Assembly: GCA_025353165.1 (NCBI GenBank)
Contig: JANXRE010000113.1
Location: 1 to 61,816, forward strand
DNA: 61,816 nucleotides
Direction: 5' to 3'
From: Acidobacteriota bacterium
Lineage (GTDB): Bacteria > Acidobacteriota > Terriglobia > Bryobacterales > Bryobacteraceae
A model generated the notes under the pieces. The model worked only from the letters and a program-made list of their open reading frames with translations. It was not told the DNA's origin and ran no database searches. The translations under genes and the position numbers were made by a program. Below are positions 40,019-46,262 of this stretch, one piece after another (the stretch's first letter is position 1; every line of letters starts with the position of its first letter).

Positions 40019-40977
40019 CAATCGACGTGATCGGAGAAGAACCGGTCGATGCTCGCCTTTTGCGGCGCGAGATCGCCGGATAATTCGTACATCTGTTCTT
40101 TCGGCATCGGCGTGAAGGCTTTTGCGATGGCGATGTTCTGTTCGATGAACTCCGGCTTTGGCATTCCTATCACCGCGGCGGTGACCGGCAGCGAGAGCGA
40201 GTACGAAATCAGCTTCTCGACCGGAGCTTTTCCGCTGAGCTTCTCCTGCGCGAAAATCTTCATCGCGATCACGCCCATCTTCTTGTTGTTAGCGATGGGA
40301 AGCGCCAGCGATTCGAAGCTGGTGGTCGCGCCAGGGTCGCTGCTCGGACTCGCCATGCCTACGCGCGCGGCGTTCAGCGCCATCTGGGTGCAGTCGAAAT
40401 CGTGCCGTTCAAGCGCCTTCCGCAGCACCGCCGGATCGGTATGGGAGGTTATACCGATGGCGCGCGTGACCTTCTGCTCCCGCAGCTTGTAGAGGAGCTG
40501 CAGAACGCCATCGTGCGCCTCGATCGCCTTGAGGTCGTCCTCGCCGGCGAGGCTATGGATATGGATGAGGTCCACTTTTTGCGTCTGGAGGCGTTTCAGG
40601 CTTCCCTCAATAATGCGCTTGGCTTCCTCCGCTTTGCGAGGGATCACCTTCGTCGCCAGCCAGACCTCCTTGCGGCGCGTCTTCATGACGCCGCCGACCC
40701 AGGTCTCGCTTTTGCCGTCGCCGTAGCCGTAGGCGGTATCGAAATAGGTGATGCCCAAGTCCAGCGCCTTATTTAACGCGGCGTGCGCTTTCTCCTCGTC
40801 TCCATAGGCGAGAAACCGGCTGCCGCATCCGAAGGCGAGAATCGATACTCGCGCTCCGGTGCGCCCCAGCACGCGCATTGGCATACCGGTTTTCGCATCC
40901 GTATCCGCATTTAGCAGCGTTGAGGCCGCCCCTGCAAGCGCCGCCGATTCCAGAAACCTACGTCGGGATAAACTCAT
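40015..40977 (-). CDS. Tat-exported aldo/keto reductase
   Basis: 320-aa protein with a twin-arginine leader (SRRRFLESAALAGAAST) and an AKR barrel: RTGARVSILAFGCGSRF, the catalytic Asp/Tyr in ITYFDTAYGYGDGKSE, Lys in WLATKVIP and His in VDLIHIHSL. The cofactor loop at the C-terminus is shorter than in soluble NADPH-dependent members. Export of a nicotinamide-type reductase is unusual but common in this leader class among acidobacteria and planctomycetes (inference); the substrate is unknown. The ATG at 40977 is used because the Tat motif starts there. Confidence 0.88.
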   Translation of the reverse strand: MSLSRRRFLESAALAGAASTLLNADTDAKTGMPMRVLGRTGARVSILAFGCGSRFLAYGDEEKAHAALNKALDLGITYFDTAYGYGDGKSETWVGGVMKTRRKEVWLATKVIPRKAEEAKRIIEGSLKRLQTQKVDLIHIHSLAGEDDLKAIEAHDGVLQLLYKLREQKVTRAIGITSHTDPAVLRKALERHDFDCTQMALNAARVGMASPSSDPGATTSFESLALPIANNKKMGVIAMKIFAQEKLSGKAPVEKLISYSLSLPVTAAVIGMPKPEFIEQNIAIAKAFTPMPKEQMYELSGDLAPQKASIDRFFSDHVDC

Positions 40978-41029
40978 TACGCCATCATACTGCTGTCGCG
41001 GGTTCGCTGTTTCGGGGATAATAGGGATC

Positions 41030-41611
41030 GTGTCCCGGTATAAGGAAATCGAGGCTCGACTTGAGCGCACGGAGGCGCAGCTTCGTGTTTTTCAAAGCAT
41101 CAGCCGGATGATGGTGCGGGAGATGAGCCTGGCCGAAGTTCTGCACGGAATTGTGGAACTGGTGGGCGACTTCATGGCGTGCGATTCGTGCCTGGTGTAC
41201 CTGCTGAACAACGACCAGCTTGTGTTATGCGCCTCGAATCCGTCCCACCCGGCGATGATTGGCAAGGTCCGCCTGAAAATGAATGAGGGGTTGACGGGAT
41301 GGGTGGCGCAAGAACGGCGGCTGCTCGCGATTTCCCGCGAGGCGTACAGCGACCCGCGATTCAAGAACTTCAGCGACCTGCCCGAGGATACGTTTCAATC
41401 CTTCCTGTCGGCGCCGATCATCGCGCGCAACCGGGTGGTCGGCGTGATTAACGTCCAGCACCGGCTGGCGCATATGCACACGGGAATAGAACTGGAACTG
41501 CTGAACACGGTCGCCGAGCAGGTGGGATGCCTGCTGGTGCTGTCGCGTCTGGCTGCGGCCACCGTGGAAGAAGCGAATCACGTCGAACTCGTTCTTTCGT
41601 CGCTCGCCTGA
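41030..41611 (+). CDS. GAF-domain signalling protein
   Basis: 193-aa cytoplasmic protein with a short N-terminal coiled coil (EIEARLERTEAQLRVFQSI) and one GAF domain covering most of the rest: LAEVLHGIVELVGDFMACDSCLVYLL, GLTGWVAQERRLLAIS, FLSAPIIARNRVVGVINVQH. No output domain follows, so it probably signals through another protein. The GTG at 41030 has GGGA upstream; the frame extends further 5' across the divergent reductase promoter but is not coding there. The Ycf48-like gene starts 7 bp after. Confidence 0.85.
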   Translation: MSRYKEIEARLERTEAQLRVFQSISRMMVREMSLAEVLHGIVELVGDFMACDSCLVYLLNNDQLVLCASNPSHPAMIGKVRLKMNEGLTGWVAQERRLLAISREAYSDPRFKNFSDLPEDTFQSFLSAPIIARNRVVGVINVQHRLAHMHTGIELELLNTVAEQVGCLLVLSRLAAATVEEANHVELVLSSLA

Positions 41612-41618
41612 GGCGTCC

Positions 41619-42734
41619 ATGCGTGCAGTCATTGTTCTTCTGTCCGCGATTGCGGCGGCCGCTCAACCGTCCGCCGGATCCGGCTCCTGGAAAATCCAAT
41701 ACCAGTTTGGCAAAGACCGGCAATCGTTCTCGATCGATGACCTGATGTTCGTGTCGCGCGACCGGGGAATCGCCGTCGGCACCTTGAGCAGGGTGGATAA
41801 GAAACCAGAAGGGCTGGTGTTGGTGACGCGCGACGGCGGCGCAACTTGGACCTCCGTTCCGATCAAGGAACCTGTGGGCGCCGTGTTCCTGGTCAACGAG
41901 TCGGTCGGTTATATGGCGACCCAGAGCGGCATCTGGAAGACCCAGGAATCTGGCCTTTCCTGGCGGAAGGTGCGGAACGCCAAGGATGTCGAAGGGGTGT
42001 ACTTCGTGGACGAAAAGCACGGATGGGCGTTCGGGGCGCAGAAGTTGCTGATCGAAACCAAGGACGGCGGAAACACATGGGCGGAGGTTCCGGCCGCGGC
42101 CGAGGTGAAGTCCAACCCGCAGTACACCGTCTATCGCTGGATGCAATTCGTGAGTCCGTCCCGAGGCATGGCGGGCGGGACGGCGATACCGCCGCGCCTT
42201 GCGGACTTTCGTGCCGACGCGCCCGCATGGGCCGATCCGGAGAGCGCCTCGAAACGCCGCGAGTGGCCAACCCTGTCGATCGGGTTGGATACTTCCGATG
42301 GCGGCAGCACATGGAAGTTGCAGACCGCGCCTACGTTTGGCATTTCCGTGCGGCTTAGGTTCGCCGGTGAAACGCGCGGCCTGGGCTTGATCCGATTCGA
42401 AAACGCTTTCGATTATCCGTCCGAGGTGTACCTGATCGCGCCGAAGACCGGAAAGAGCGTGCGCGCGTATCGCGAGAAAAAGCGGATCGTCGCGGATGTC
42501 GGCTGGTTGACCCCGGAGCGCGCGGTGGTGGTGGTCATCGAGCCGCCGGGATCTCCGCTGCTGCCTGTTCCTGGCCGTCTGCATGTTTTAGAAAGCGAAA
42601 ACTATACCGAGTGGACCGAAATGCCGGTGGCTTGGAAAGCATACGCCAAGGAGGCGGTGCTGACCGTCTCCGGAGATCGGGCGTGGATTGGCACCGACAC
42701 CGGAATGATCCTCACGCTGGTTCACGAACCCTAG
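41619..42734 (+). CDS. Exported Ycf48/HCF136-like (BNR-repeat) protein
   Basis: 371-aa protein with a signal peptide (RAVIVLLSAIAAAAQ) and several repeats of the sialidase/Ycf48 propeller type, each with a DGG.TW turn: VTRDGGATWTSV, KTQESGLSWRKV, ETKDGGNTWAEV, DTSDGGSTWKLQ. Conserved GYMATQSGIWKTQ and GWAFG spacers support a beta-propeller. Such proteins bind ligands or assist assembly outside photosynthesis; the role here is unknown. GAGG lies upstream of the ATG. The structured RNA region begins about 150 bp after its stop. Confidence 0.85.
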   Translation: MRAVIVLLSAIAAAAQPSAGSGSWKIQYQFGKDRQSFSIDDLMFVSRDRGIAVGTLSRVDKKPEGLVLVTRDGGATWTSVPIKEPVGAVFLVNESVGYMATQSGIWKTQESGLSWRKVRNAKDVEGVYFVDEKHGWAFGAQKLLIETKDGGNTWAEVPAAAEVKSNPQYTVYRWMQFVSPSRGMAGGTAIPPRLADFRADAPAWADPESASKRREWPTLSIGLDTSDGGSTWKLQTAPTFGISVRLRFAGETRGLGLIRFENAFDYPSEVYLIAPKTGKSVRAYREKKRIVADVGWLTPERAVVVVIEPPGSPLLPVPGRLHVLESENYTEWTEMPVAWKAYAKEAVLTVSGDRAWIGTDTGMILTLVHEP

Positions 42735-42886
42735 TCCAACAACATTTTTTGTAAGTACTGTTTTATCCACACGCCATCCACCCGGAAATCTCTGCAATCG
42801 CATGAAAACAGGGCAAATAATTTACGAGGAAATCGTTACAATCCGATCACTTTTTGATTGACGCGAAGCGGTCTTAGGTACATCAT

Positions 42887-43500
42887 GGGGATGGTTCCAA
42901 GAGGTTCGACGGATAAGTTAACCTCGCGGACGGTAGCGGACCTGGAACGATGATCCGCTGGCAAAAGTAAATTCATATAACAGACGCCAGCGGGGAGCGA
43001 AGGGAAATCGGGCCGGACGCAAGGTAAGCTTCGGTAAACGAAGGCTGACCGGGCGCTACGAGCCGAAGGGGTGAAAGCCCCGACGGGGAGCGGCGGTTAG
43101 TCGATCGGAGGCCGGGTTCCGGGAGCGGAACCGGAAACGGGTTTCTGGCGAAGATCTTCCCCGGCATCGAGAGATGCGGAGGAAGGGAGCCGGAAGCCGA
43201 ACGGACCGGGGAAGCTTACCGGAAGGGTATCGAAGATGTAGGCCAGGAGCTCCGACCCCGCCGGGGCGGTCATCGAAAGGTGGCAGTCCATGCGGGCGAG
43301 CGAAAGGCCGCATCGAGAAACCAGCTTCGGTTGAGATCAGTAAGCGGACGGCGCTTCGGAGCGTTGATCCATCGCGGGCGTAAAGCCGGCGGCGGGGAGC
43401 GAAGAAGCAAAAGTCACAACTGGCTTCGATCGCCGGGTTCAGACCGGGCTAGACGGTCGGTGAACGGGCTACTTCGAAGGGTCACTTGGAACCATCTTCT
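42887..43500 (+). ncRNA. Large structured non-coding RNA candidate (about 610 nt)
   Basis: No convincing coding frame on either strand; the plus strand is purine-rich. The ends pair perfectly: GATGGTTCCAAG (42890-42901) with CTTGGAACCATC (43485-43496), followed by TTCTTTT. Inside are many short perfect stems, for example GAGGTT/AACCTC (42901-42925), CGCTGGC/GCCAGCG (42956-42992), GGGG-TGAAAG-CCCC (43068-43081), GGTTCC/GGAACC (43115-43132), CTTCC-GCATC-GAGA-GATGC-GGAAG (43156-43185), ATGCGG/CCGCAT (43290-43313), GATCA...CGCT-TCGG-AGCG...TGATC (43335-43369) and GTTC/GAAC (43437-43465). GNRA- and UNCG-like loops occur on the plus strand, which sets the direction. A weak promoter (TTGACG at 42858) may precede it. 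Bases 42735-42886 are AT-rich with nothing else evident. Family not recognised. Confidence 0.65.
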
Positions 43501-43559
43501 TTTGGGTAGTATCCCACCCTGATGAACGCCCCCGCGGCTTGATATGCTGGCCACGTCAC

Positions 43560-46262
43560 ATGCTCCGGCTATTCGTTCTCCTGTCGGTCTCAAGCATACT
43601 TGCCGGCGCCGCGAATTTGCGCGTTCTGGTGCGCGACCCCAAGGGCGAGGCTGTCGCCGGCGCCGAAATTGCTGTTCGCGATTCCGGCGGCGCGTTGACC
43701 GCATCCTCGCCCGCCAGTGGCGCGGCCACGTTCGAAATCCCGAACATCGCCAAAGGCCAGTACGCGATCAGCGTACAAAAAAAGGGATTCGCCCCCGCCA
43801 CTAAGAGCATCACGGTGGAGGACAAAGATCTCGAGGTCGTCATCGATCTCAAAATCGCCGTTGTCGAAACCGTAATCGAAGTGGAGGGAAAGGGCTCGCG
43901 CTTCGCGAACTCGGATCCCAACTATCGCTCCCTTCGCAGCGCGTCCATCGCTTCCACGTGCCGCGTTCAGAATCTCGCCATCACCCGCGACGTGGGGACG
44001 CTGACTCTCCGCGAAGGCCAGGTCTCGCTATTGGCGCCGGTCCTCGGCAAGACGGTGATGGCCGTGTTCACAGGGTCGGGATCCTTTCACCTGCAGCCCG
44101 CCATCGACCTCGAACGCAGGTACCTGACCACCATTCTCGACAAGGAAACAGTCGACGAGGATTTCGATTCGGCGGTATTCGCATTCACCGACGCGACCGC
44201 GGAGGAGATTCGAGCGAAGGGCCAGCCGATGGACGATGCAGGCCGAGCGAGCGATGGCTTAAAGCAGTTCCGGTCGCACATGCGCCACCGGGTCACCCAG
44301 CCGCGCAGCTTCACCGAGGCGCTGCTGTTCAGCGGCGACGTCCCGAATCTCGACGCCGAGTTGCTGGCGGAGTTGTACAACCCTGCCCGGGCTGGATCCT
44401 TCCGCGCGTTCCTTCACGGGCGAAAGCACAACGACCTTCGGTTTCTGGTGAAGCCGCGCGGCGCGGTGCCGTCGCTGTCGCCCGAGGAAGTGGCAGTCAT
44501 CGCAGTCGAGCCGCTCGGGAAGACGGACGGCATCTGGTATCTGACCCATTTCGCCTCCGAGTGGCAGAAGCGCGTCGCGTCGTCGGACGAAAAGAAGCAC
44601 ACCGTTGCGCCGGAGCACTATCGCATCGAGACCATCGTGGGCAAGAACCGCCACCTCACGGCGGTTGCGGACATCACGTTCCGGGCGCTCGAAAGCGGCG
44701 ACCGCGTCATTCCGTTCGGGTTGCTTCAGACCCTGCGGGTGACACGGGTTAGCGCCGGGGACAAGGAGATCCCCTACATTCAGGAGAGCCGGAAAGAAGA
44801 TGGTTCCTTCTACGTTGTACTCCCGGAGCCCGTGGTCCAAGGAAAGCCGTATACGCTCAAGATCGAATACGAAGGCGACAAGGTGATCGAGGATTGGGGC
44901 GGCGGGAACTACGCCGTCGGCGCACGGGAAAGTTGGTATCCGAGCATGAACTCGTTCCAGCAGCAGGCCACTTACGATCTGATCTTCAAGGTTCCTCACA
45001 ACCTGACCCTGGTCAGCGTGGGCAAGCCGATCCGGCATTCCCGCGAGGGTGGCTTCGCGGTTACGGAATGGAAATCCGATACGCCGATGGCGGTGGCTGG
45101 TTTTAATTACGGCGACTTCAAGCGGAAGCAGGTGACCGACGCAGAGACGCACTATGACATCGAGGCCTACGCGACCACCGACCTGCCCGATTTTCTGCGT
45201 GACGCTGGGCAGTCGATGAGCCTGACGCCGAGCGCCATGGCGGACAGCGCGCTCGCGGTCGCGCAGAACTCGATCCGGCTTTTCTCCCTATACTTCGGCG
45301 CGGCTCCCTACGGGCGAATTGCGATTACTCAGCAGCCGCAATTCAACTTTGGACAGTCCTGGCCCACGCTCGTGTACCTGCCCGTCAGCGCGTTCCTGGA
45401 CGGAACGCAGCGTTGGCGCCTCATGGGCCAGCAGGCTTTCAAGTTCGCCGAGTTCATTCAGGAAGTCACGCCGCACGAGATCGCTCATCAGTGGTGGGGG
45501 CACATGGTGGGCTGGTCGTCCTATCACGACCAGTGGCTGTCGGAAGGGTTCGCCGATTTTTCGGCGGGACTGTATCTTCAAGCGACCGAAAAGAGCCCGG
45601 ACAAATACCGGCAGTACTGGGAGCACGCCCGCAAGGCGATCCTCGAGAAGAACGAGTACGGCCGGTCGGCGAACGAGGCGGGGCCGCTGTGGATGGGGCT
45701 GCGCCTGAACACCGAAAGAAACGGGCGGGCTTACAGCCGCCTGGTCTATCCCAAGGGCGGCTACGCTCTGCACATGATCCGGTCGCTGATGTGGGAACCG
45801 AAGACCGGCGACGCCGACTTCATCGCGATGATGAAGGACTTCGTGCAATCGAACCTTTACAAGACGGCCTCGTCCGAGACCTTCCAGGCCGCCGTGCAGA
45901 AACACATGAAACCCTCCATGGACCTGGAGGGCAACGGGAGCATCGGCTGGTTCTTCCGGCAGTGGGTGCTGGGAACGGAGGTCCCGAGGTACGAGTTCGA
46001 ATACTCCGTGAAGCAGGACGGCGATGGCTGGCTGCTGAGCGGGAAGCTCACGCAAAGCGAGGTCGGGGACAACTTCGTCATGCGAGTGCCGGTGTACGTG
46101 GAATTCGACAGCGGCCTGATGCGGCTGGGTTCGGTAAAGATCCAGGGGAACCGTACCGTCGACGCGATGAAGGCATTTCGGCTTCCGAAGAAGCCGAAAT
46201 GCGTGCTGATCAACGGGAACTACGACGTCCTGGCATCCGAAAGCAAGTCGAAAGAAATCTAA
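43560..46262 (+). CDS. Exported M1-family metallopeptidase with N-terminal regulatory-fold domain
   Basis: 900-aa protein: signal peptide (LRLFVLLSVSSILAGA), a carboxypeptidase-regulatory-like sandwich at about residues 20-105 (LRVLVRDPKGEAVAGAEIAV), a long unassigned domain, an M1 N-terminal beta domain (HYRIETIVGKNRHLTAVADI) and the catalytic domain with HEIAHQWWGHMVGW near residue 642 and the downstream Glu in WLSEGFADFSAGLYL. The GAMEN exopeptidase motif is replaced by QQPQFNFGQSWPTLV, so specificity may differ from classic aminopeptidases. The ATG at 43560 begins the leader peptide. A palindromic repeat follows 9 bp after the stop. Confidence 0.9.
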   Translation: MLRLFVLLSVSSILAGAANLRVLVRDPKGEAVAGAEIAVRDSGGALTASSPASGAATFEIPNIAKGQYAISVQKKGFAPATKSITVEDKDLEVVIDLKIAVVETVIEVEGKGSRFANSDPNYRSLRSASIASTCRVQNLAITRDVGTLTLREGQVSLLAPVLGKTVMAVFTGSGSFHLQPAIDLERRYLTTILDKETVDEDFDSAVFAFTDATAEEIRAKGQPMDDAGRASDGLKQFRSHMRHRVTQPRSFTEALLFSGDVPNLDAELLAELYNPARAGSFRAFLHGRKHNDLRFLVKPRGAVPSLSPEEVAVIAVEPLGKTDGIWYLTHFASEWQKRVASSDEKKHTVAPEHYRIETIVGKNRHLTAVADITFRALESGDRVIPFGLLQTLRVTRVSAGDKEIPYIQESRKEDGSFYVVLPEPVVQGKPYTLKIEYEGDKVIEDWGGGNYAVGARESWYPSMNSFQQQATYDLIFKVPHNLTLVSVGKPIRHSREGGFAVTEWKSDTPMAVAGFNYGDFKRKQVTDAETHYDIEAYATTDLPDFLRDAGQSMSLTPSAMADSALAVAQNSIRLFSLYFGAAPYGRIAITQQPQFNFGQSWPTLVYLPVSAFLDGTQRWRLMGQQAFKFAEFIQEVTPHEIAHQWWGHMVGWSSYHDQWLSEGFADFSAGLYLQATEKSPDKYRQYWEHARKAILEKNEYGRSANEAGPLWMGLRLNTERNGRAYSRLVYPKGGYALHMIRSLMWEPKTGDADFIAMMKDFVQSNLYKTASSETFQAAVQKHMKPSMDLEGNGSIGWFFRQWVLGTEVPRYEFEYSVKQDGDGWLLSGKLTQSEVGDNFVMRVPVYVEFDSGLMRLGSVKIQGNRTVDAMKAFRLPKKPKCVLINGNYDVLASESKSKEI

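Follow-up and report, generated by a model that had tools for sequence, protein, structure and literature searches.

The window, i.e., the whole stretch of 61,816 nucleotides that was analysed, contains at 42889–43503 what we interpret as the gene of a large structured RNA, flanked by a YCF48-like open reading frame (41619–42734) and by one for an M1 peptidase (43539–46262). The ends of this gene are inferred from a promoter, from a helix closing the molecule and from the span over which copies within a genome agree with each other. The features used below are as follows:

40964–41611, plus strand: gene of a GAF-domain protein (PF01590, searched with the longer open reading frame 40859–41608), preceding the YCF48-like gene; start codon approximate
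41619–42734, plus strand: gene of a YCF48-like (PSII_BNR) protein (Pfam PF14870), a recurrent upstream neighbour (locus A) and not part of the RNA
42858–42886, plus strand: sigma-70-type promoter (-35 TTGACG at 42858–42863, 17-nt spacer, -10 CATCAT at 42881–42886)
42889–43503, plus strand: large structured RNA gene, about 600–615 nt, resting on 128 distinct full-length homologues, covariation and the identity span of paired copies
42890–42901, plus strand: 5' strand of the closing helix, GATGGTTCCAAG; this helix (helix 1) is paired in 98.9% of cells
42921–43025, plus strand: 5' domain, an irregular hairpin with helices 42921–42963 / 42985–43025, within covariance model R1
43026–43327, plus strand: central domain, closed by 43026–43030 / 43323–43327, with three arms
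43031–43115, 43117–43224 and 43226–43322, plus strand: arms of the central domain, with GA modules 2, 3 and 4; the third is the basis of model R2
43331–43429, plus strand: arm of the 3' domain, with GA module 5 and helices 43331–43378 / 43386–43429
43442–43458, plus strand: last hairpin, GACCG-GGCTAGA-CGGTC, with a palindromic loop whose core is CUAG here and GCAUGC in most homologues
43485–43496, plus strand: 3' strand of the closing helix, CTTGGAACCATC, based on the inverted repeat and the covariation count
43497–43503, plus strand: T-tract, TTCTTTT, directly 3' of the closing helix

Proposed transcript ends, coding potential and known families

The promoter is the sole promoter-like site in 42735–43560, where shuffled sequences contain 0.3 on average. 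Among the 126 homologues with enough upstream DNA its TTGAC is exact in 120, carries one mismatch in four and is absent in two, and its distance to the GG(TTCC) of the closing helix is 35 nt in 103 homologues, 36 nt in 16 and 37 nt in one; the homologous -10 consensus is CATANT. The site lies just outside the interval delimited by the initial annotation and is absent from its account. At the other end, the T-tract which that annotation had pointed out proved to be a general feature: 114 of 126 homologues have at least seven T among the 13 nt that follow the helix. A conventional terminator with a local hairpin was not detected in 42735–43560. The T-tract is probably a terminator in which the long-range closing helix replaces the local hairpin, a role that is inferred.

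A protein-coding gene is unlikely here, as had been claimed from the outset: open reading frames of at least 60 aa lying wholly inside the region are only 64–85 aa long. In 102 non-redundant homologues the longest plus-strand frame has a median length of 67 aa (maximum 134) with scattered starts, and 34 of 530 gap runs are divisible by three (alignment columns with at least 50% gaps excluded), so that by frame lengths, starts and gap runs no conserved reading frame was found on the plus strand. Minus-strand frames in the same homologues are longer (median 105 aa, maximum 200), the conservation of these frames not having been assessed. What is expected of a stand-alone non-coding RNA gene, namely its own promoter and end, a conserved structure and no conserved frame, is thus present in the form of sequence patterns.

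Searches against Rfam 15, which includes OLE, ROOL, GOLLD, HEARO, group II introns and RNase P, gave no match at the gathering score across the whole window and none in 20 homologous loci, which is the negative outcome of the check that the initial annotation had proposed. At E ≤10 the interval 42700–43600 has a single match, to Methylosinus-1, with 10.5 bits against a cut-off of 145.1 (E 7.9). A diverged member of a known large RNA class (OLE, ROOL, GOLLD, group II intron, RNase P or 6S) would account for a size and loop signature resembling those of OLE and GOLLD, but the absence of any Rfam 15 match in the window and in the 20 homologous loci speaks against it, as does the fact that RNase P and 6S matches above cut-off are found elsewhere in the genome, and we consider it improbable. 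Replacement of a housekeeping RNA was also considered and rejected, 6S RNA (47.1 bits, barely above the cut-off) and RNase P RNA both being encoded elsewhere in the genome of the window. No description of this RNA was found among the literature matches listed, which is weak evidence of absence.

A covarying fold and a palindrome-switching loop

The plus strand of the region folds at -292 kcal/mol (z -9.1) and the minus strand reaches z -3.8; in neither case did any of 20 shuffled sequences equal the value. The terminal pairing reported in the initial annotation is exact: GATGGTTCCAAG at 42890–42901 and CTTGGAACCATC at 43485–43496 form a perfect 12-bp inverted repeat with a spacing of 583 nt, the closing helix extends inwards beyond a single unpaired base, and its part GGUUCCAAG is paired in each of the 29 homologues aligned, with C-G in place of one U-A pair in two of them. 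The loop types claimed at the same time were borne out only in part, since GAGA and GAAA tetraloops occur in the minimum-energy fold, but the UUCG at 43355–43358, probably one of the UNCG loops meant (no positions had been given), does not form a hairpin loop in the consensus fold.

RNAalifold applied to 29 homologues gave 140 consensus pairs, with 90.8% of the cells in the alignment paired. A compensatory double change is seen in 103 of these pairs, compared with a mean of 77.5 in shuffles and 67–79 when the partners are slid, and the covariation score is 0.551 as against 0.219 for column shuffles and at most 0.131 with slid partners. For 102 RNAs below 90% identity the structure comprises 187 pairs, 158 of them with a double change, and 87.7% of cells are paired. 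Both structures were derived from the alignments used for counting, and the pair counts are therefore biased in their favour. The compensatory changes whose search in homologues had been proposed are thus numerous in both sets, and the initial inference of a large undescribed structured RNA is supported by covarying homologues and by the lack of an Rfam 15 family, though a transcript has not been shown.

In overall architecture, the terminal helix closes the molecule and encloses the 5' domain, the central three-arm domain, the 3' arm and the last hairpin. These domains share a recurrent module rich in G and A, of the form GGA..CG.UGA.CC / GG.GAGCGAA, in about five copies, of which, by inspection, three are complete and two shorter; the first, in the 5' domain, has the conserved internal loops CC.GGAACG.TGATCCG / CGGGGAGCGAAGG. 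The motif GGNGAGY occurs on average 4.57 times per RNA versus 1.09 times in mononucleotide shuffles, and models R1 and R2 weakly match each other's domain in diverged homologues.

About 7 nt make up the loop of the last hairpin, and a hexamer could be assigned there in 124 of 128 RNAs: GCATGC in 95, GCTAGC in 9, GCTAGA in 4, GCATGA and GTATGC in 3 each, GTATAC, TCTAGA and TCATGA in 2 each, and GCGCGC, GTTAAC, GCATGT and ACATGT in 1 each. Hexamers were assigned at alignment-anchored positions from the list of these 12 states, with L195 set by hand, L252 left out owing to a misplaced 3' end, and L050, L241 and L248 scored as having none. Eight of the 12 states are perfect palindromes (GCAUGC, GCUAGC, GUAUAC, GCGCGC, GUUAAC, UCUAGA, UCAUGA and ACAUGU). 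By Watson-Crick pairing alone the core tetranucleotide reads as a palindrome in 121 of 124 RNAs, and with G-U pairs included it is self-complementary in all 124; in 2000 independent column shuffles these counts averaged 88 and 93 and never exceeded 98 and 103, respectively. Six-nucleotide palindromes are present at the last hairpin in 90 of 102 RNAs, as opposed to 0–8 of 102 in five other apical loops.

By parsimony on the 124 RNAs the hexamer changed 18 times, and its two adjacent central bases changed 9 times each, always jointly (9 with L050, L241 and L248 pruned, 11 if changes to 'none' are counted; several branches of the underlying tree are weakly supported). Such joint change cannot reflect pairing of the two bases with one another inside the molecule, because chain neighbours cannot pair together. 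No other column of the RNA tracks the switch between CATG and CTAG, the best reaching 0.24 bits versus 0.55 and 0.30 for the central loop columns, and the hexamer occurs only once in 119 of 124 RNAs and twice in the remaining five; the absence of a co-switching column and the rarity of repeats together make an intramolecular partner unlikely.

The requirement applied to large ornate homo-oligomeric RNAs, a symmetric kissing loop that covaries between palindromes, is met here. In PMC12286853 the switch between palindromes serves as evidence for the homo-oligomer contacts of OLE (L9.3) and GOLLD (L21a): OLE forms a dimer (stoichiometry 2) through a symmetric kissing loop in which a tetranucleotide switches between palindromes, and in the symmetric kissing loop L21a of GOLLD a dinucleotide switches between GC and CG. 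From the switching, the missing internal partner and this precedent, a homodimer or homo-oligomer contact is predicted, and the RNA very probably dimerises through a symmetric kissing loop, although this is a prediction from sequence and no dimer has been shown.

Dimerisation is perhaps weaker or absent in some members, given that L050 and L241 have GUCAAA loops, L248 has a rearranged GC-rich hairpin whose loop could not be assigned, and the loop of the window itself, GGCUAGA, is palindromic over only 4 nt (CUAG). L050, L241 and L248, the last two being sisters on the tree, are natural candidates for a loss of self-pairing.

The most serious competitor is a monomeric large structured RNA acting within a ribonucleoprotein, its palindromic loop being a protein site or pairing with another RNA. 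Such monomers exist, raiA RNA, which is also large, being monomeric (PMC12286853); a GGNGAGY frequency of 4.6 per RNA against 1.1 in shuffles is what repeated protein sites would give, and three RNAs lack a recognised palindrome. A site for a protein or a foreign RNA, however, has no cause to exchange one palindrome for another, joint changes of adjacent bases included, and no second site in the RNA switches in step. We regard the monomeric alternative as possible but rather unlikely, and retain self-pairing of the loop as the preferred reading.

Distribution, neighbours and duplicate copies

When 151 genomes, that of the window and its relatives, were searched at the DNA level, 63 proved to contain matches; those of greater length are 65–70% identical. 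A pattern scan returned 66 loci, 65 of which are in records of Acidobacteria (mostly Bryobacterales, Bryobacteraceae and Solibacter) and one in a record titled Acidimicrobiia. The latter locus (L082, VFZE01000005.1) has the RNA together with GAF and YCF48 neighbours, and its RNA is that of G031:C5, a genome of the window's family, so the Acidimicrobiia title is probably wrong. In all, 128 distinct full-length homologues were collected, most of 570–630 nt (range 492–689); this number leaves out 30 loci in which no full-length RNA was recognised, of which at least 12 are truncated at the end of a contig. Three loci of genus g41 outside the 128 (L254, L255 and L256) are diverged homologues matching R1 with 45–58 bits and R2 with 74–84 bits; their closing-helix motif was not recognised and they may constitute a subfamily.

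Wider sampling relied on R1, the covariance model of the 5' domain, and on R2, the one based on the third central arm (L024 and L050 were excluded from R1 and L050 from R2, as were near-identical RNAs). R1 detected the RNA in 142 of the 250 genomes drawn from the window's order, Bryobacterales, covering 61 of 84 genera; in the class draw it matched 42 of 299 genomes, all 42 from the window's own family, and in the phylum draw 2 of 396, both from that family. Across these three draws no R1 match fell outside the order, in which two carriers (G091 and G093) belong to a second family. As the draws overlap and the filters were stricter, the counts are lower bounds. Two weak R2 hits (29.2 and 25.4 bits) among the 396 phylum genomes lie outside the order, in other families; they have no R1 support and were dismissed as chance.

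Under the same stricter filters R1 failed to match 108 of the 250 genomes sampled from the order, and because such genomes are many, the RNA seems dispensable; within genera g25 and g41, genomes with and without a match coexist. This patchy presence suggests a conditional rather than essential role.

Around the RNA, two settings recur. Among 71 distinct loci, 36 have a same-strand YCF48-like gene at most 400 nt upstream, usually preceded by a GAF gene (locus A), 11 have a divergent glycosyltransferase-9 (GT9) gene (PF01075) 171–181 nt upstream (locus B), 22 could not be assigned and 2 are situated at the end of a contig. On the opposite strand, the gene of a class IV aminotransferase (PF01063) is often found downstream. 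Among the 128 RNAs, 66 have an A-type neighbour, 15 a B-type one and 47 none that could be assigned, many of them having short flanks; L195 and L214 are A-type, yet have a GT9 gene upstream as well.

The linkage to GAF and YCF48 is recurrent but by itself hardly functional, since the gene pair is kept without the RNA and is missing at some RNA loci. Thus 16 loci from genomes without an R1 match retain the GAF gene, followed in 14 by YCF48, and contain no RNA (R1 gave nothing at E ≤1 there, and the best R2 match had 11.2 bits), and in four chosen carriers (L173–L176) the RNA is missing beside the GAF-YCF48 pair and is located elsewhere in the genome. No partner gene was found in this examination of the GAF/YCF48 linkage, which was not accompanied by a wider co-occurrence test. 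In four RNA-less loci (L160–L163) a small Cys-rich frame is apparent by eye on the opposite strand, between the GAF/YCF48 genes and the class IV aminotransferase gene.

These neighbours also bear on whether the region might be a cis-acting leader or a 3' UTR element of an adjacent gene. It starts only about 155 nt 3' of the YCF48-like frame, the commonest upstream neighbour of the family, but the RNA's own promoter sits between the two and a T-tract marks its end; moreover, the nearest downstream frames occur in both orientations (26 minus and 20 plus, from crude calls), and at the second locus the neighbour is the unrelated GT9 gene. A cis-acting element is accordingly given very little credence by us.

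Genomes contain one to three copies of the RNA, that of the window having one. In eight within-genome pairs (L081/L186, L039/L088, L022/L202, L029/L054, L064/L193, L213/L233, L042/L079 and L038/L067) the RNA body is 86–98% identical, the 36-nt promoter 47–100% and the flanks 20–55%; seven of these pairs compare an A locus with a B locus and one a B locus with an unassigned one, and not all two-copy genomes are covered. The confinement of identity to the span of the RNA supports the proposed ends. Seven of the eight pairs are sister tips in the tree. The pattern looks like concerted evolution that halts at the transcript ends, but sampling is sparse and repeated recent duplication is not excluded, and seven other within-genome pairs (in G230, G090, G205, G289, G281, G265 and G204) are just 63–73% identical, which weakens the case for concerted evolution as a general rule. 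The tract of identity coincides with the transcript, and gene conversion or an RNA-templated process are both possible. Near-identical copies may confuse assembly, and copy numbers in draft genomes are therefore perhaps underestimates; the contigs of L030, L106, L178, L181, L221 and L231 end inside the RNA.

A perfect terminal inverted repeat, and a second locus that in some genomes holds a near-identical copy, could be the marks of a transposon-like element (MITE) that is bounded by inverted repeats of 12 bp and owes its structure merely to chance. Such an element fits poorly with a single copy in the window's own genome and one to three in others, with neighbours that recur across the family in place of dispersed unrelated sites, with a conserved promoter lying outside the repeat and with strong compensatory change, and no match to the RNA was found in plasmid or phage collections; of all the alternatives we find this one the least credible. 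The 5' motif likewise occurs in no viral contig. A phage link by way of the 3' motif, found in three viral contigs, was rejected as chance, there being no R2 match and a single R1 match of 8.5 bits (E 0.8).

Relation to other large RNAs and proposed role

OLE is about 600 nt long. The new RNA resembles OLE in being large, ornate and bacterial and in having a palindrome-switching loop (for OLE, PMC12286853), and differs from it in the lack of an Rfam match and in its hosts; OLE occurs in many Gram-positive extremophiles and binds at least six proteins, whereas none is known for the new RNA. With GOLLD it shares large size, ornate structure and a switching symmetric loop (for GOLLD, again PMC12286853). 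Many GOLLD RNAs exceed 800 nt and are described as residing in phages and prophages, often by tRNA islands, in contrast with the new RNA, which has no match in phage collections and has recurrent neighbours of chromosomal type. ROOL is of similar size (659 nt in one example), ornate and without a known protein partner; it is an RNA-only homo-oligomer, as is predicted but not shown for the new RNA, but it is found in phages and prophages, and the new RNA has no Rfam match. The conserved sequence and secondary structure of OLE, ROOL and GOLLD were not recognised, as judged through the Rfam models alone, nor was the phage or prophage location of ROOL and GOLLD in searches of phages, plasmids and viral contigs (tRNA proximity being outside their scope). 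The raiA motif RNA (ModT) is another large structured bacterial RNA, differing in that it is monomeric (PMC12286853) and conserved in more than 2,500 species, and in the absence of an Rfam match for the RNA described here. Two further candidate motifs, Solibacter-1 from Solibacter usitatus and Soil-1 from soil, are listed without Rfam accession in Table 1 of a 2010 survey (PMC2864571), and each is marked '?' as to being RNA.

We conclude that the RNA represents a new family among the large ornate, probably homo-oligomeric RNAs of bacteria and does not belong to OLE, ROOL or GOLLD, Solibacter-1 and Soil-1 remaining uncompared. Taken as a whole, the best explanation, to which we assign a probability of roughly 0.8, is a promoter-driven RNA of about 600 nt with a covarying fold that assembles with itself through a kissing loop and serves in trans as a scaffold.

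The proposed course of events is the following. A sigma-70 promoter, recognised as a sequence pattern, would drive synthesis of a non-coding RNA from the 5' strand of the closing helix onwards, transcription itself being inferred. The RNA of about 600 nt would then adopt the closed multi-domain fold with about five GA-rich internal-loop modules, the step that covariation supports, and its last strand would close the molecule and, together with the T-tract, probably terminate transcription, which is again an inference. The hairpin near the 3' end is predicted to bring two molecules together by pairing of their identical loops, so that a homodimer, or one contact within a larger homo-oligomer, would result. 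The assembled RNA may act in trans as a structural scaffold, either alone or with proteins bound to the repeated modules, and this scaffold may be needed under some condition and not in all lineages. The role of scaffold is our best guess, and no function has been shown.

A more specific version, in which the Acidobacteria possess a family of RNA-only or RNA-scaffolded homo-oligomers, has the odds about evenly balanced and is not excluded; it would draw together the few recurrent loci, the five GA-rich modules, the switching palindromic kissing loop and the duplicates of one clade, homogenised up to the transcript ends as expected of assembly subunits.

The RNA is found across a single order of free-living soil bacteria, which has cultured members; as one genus can include both carriers and non-carriers, a comparison is feasible. 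If the proposal is true, a further, unrelated family whose self-pairing is backed by evolutionary evidence of its own would point to homo-oligomers of RNA as a device that recurs among bacteria.
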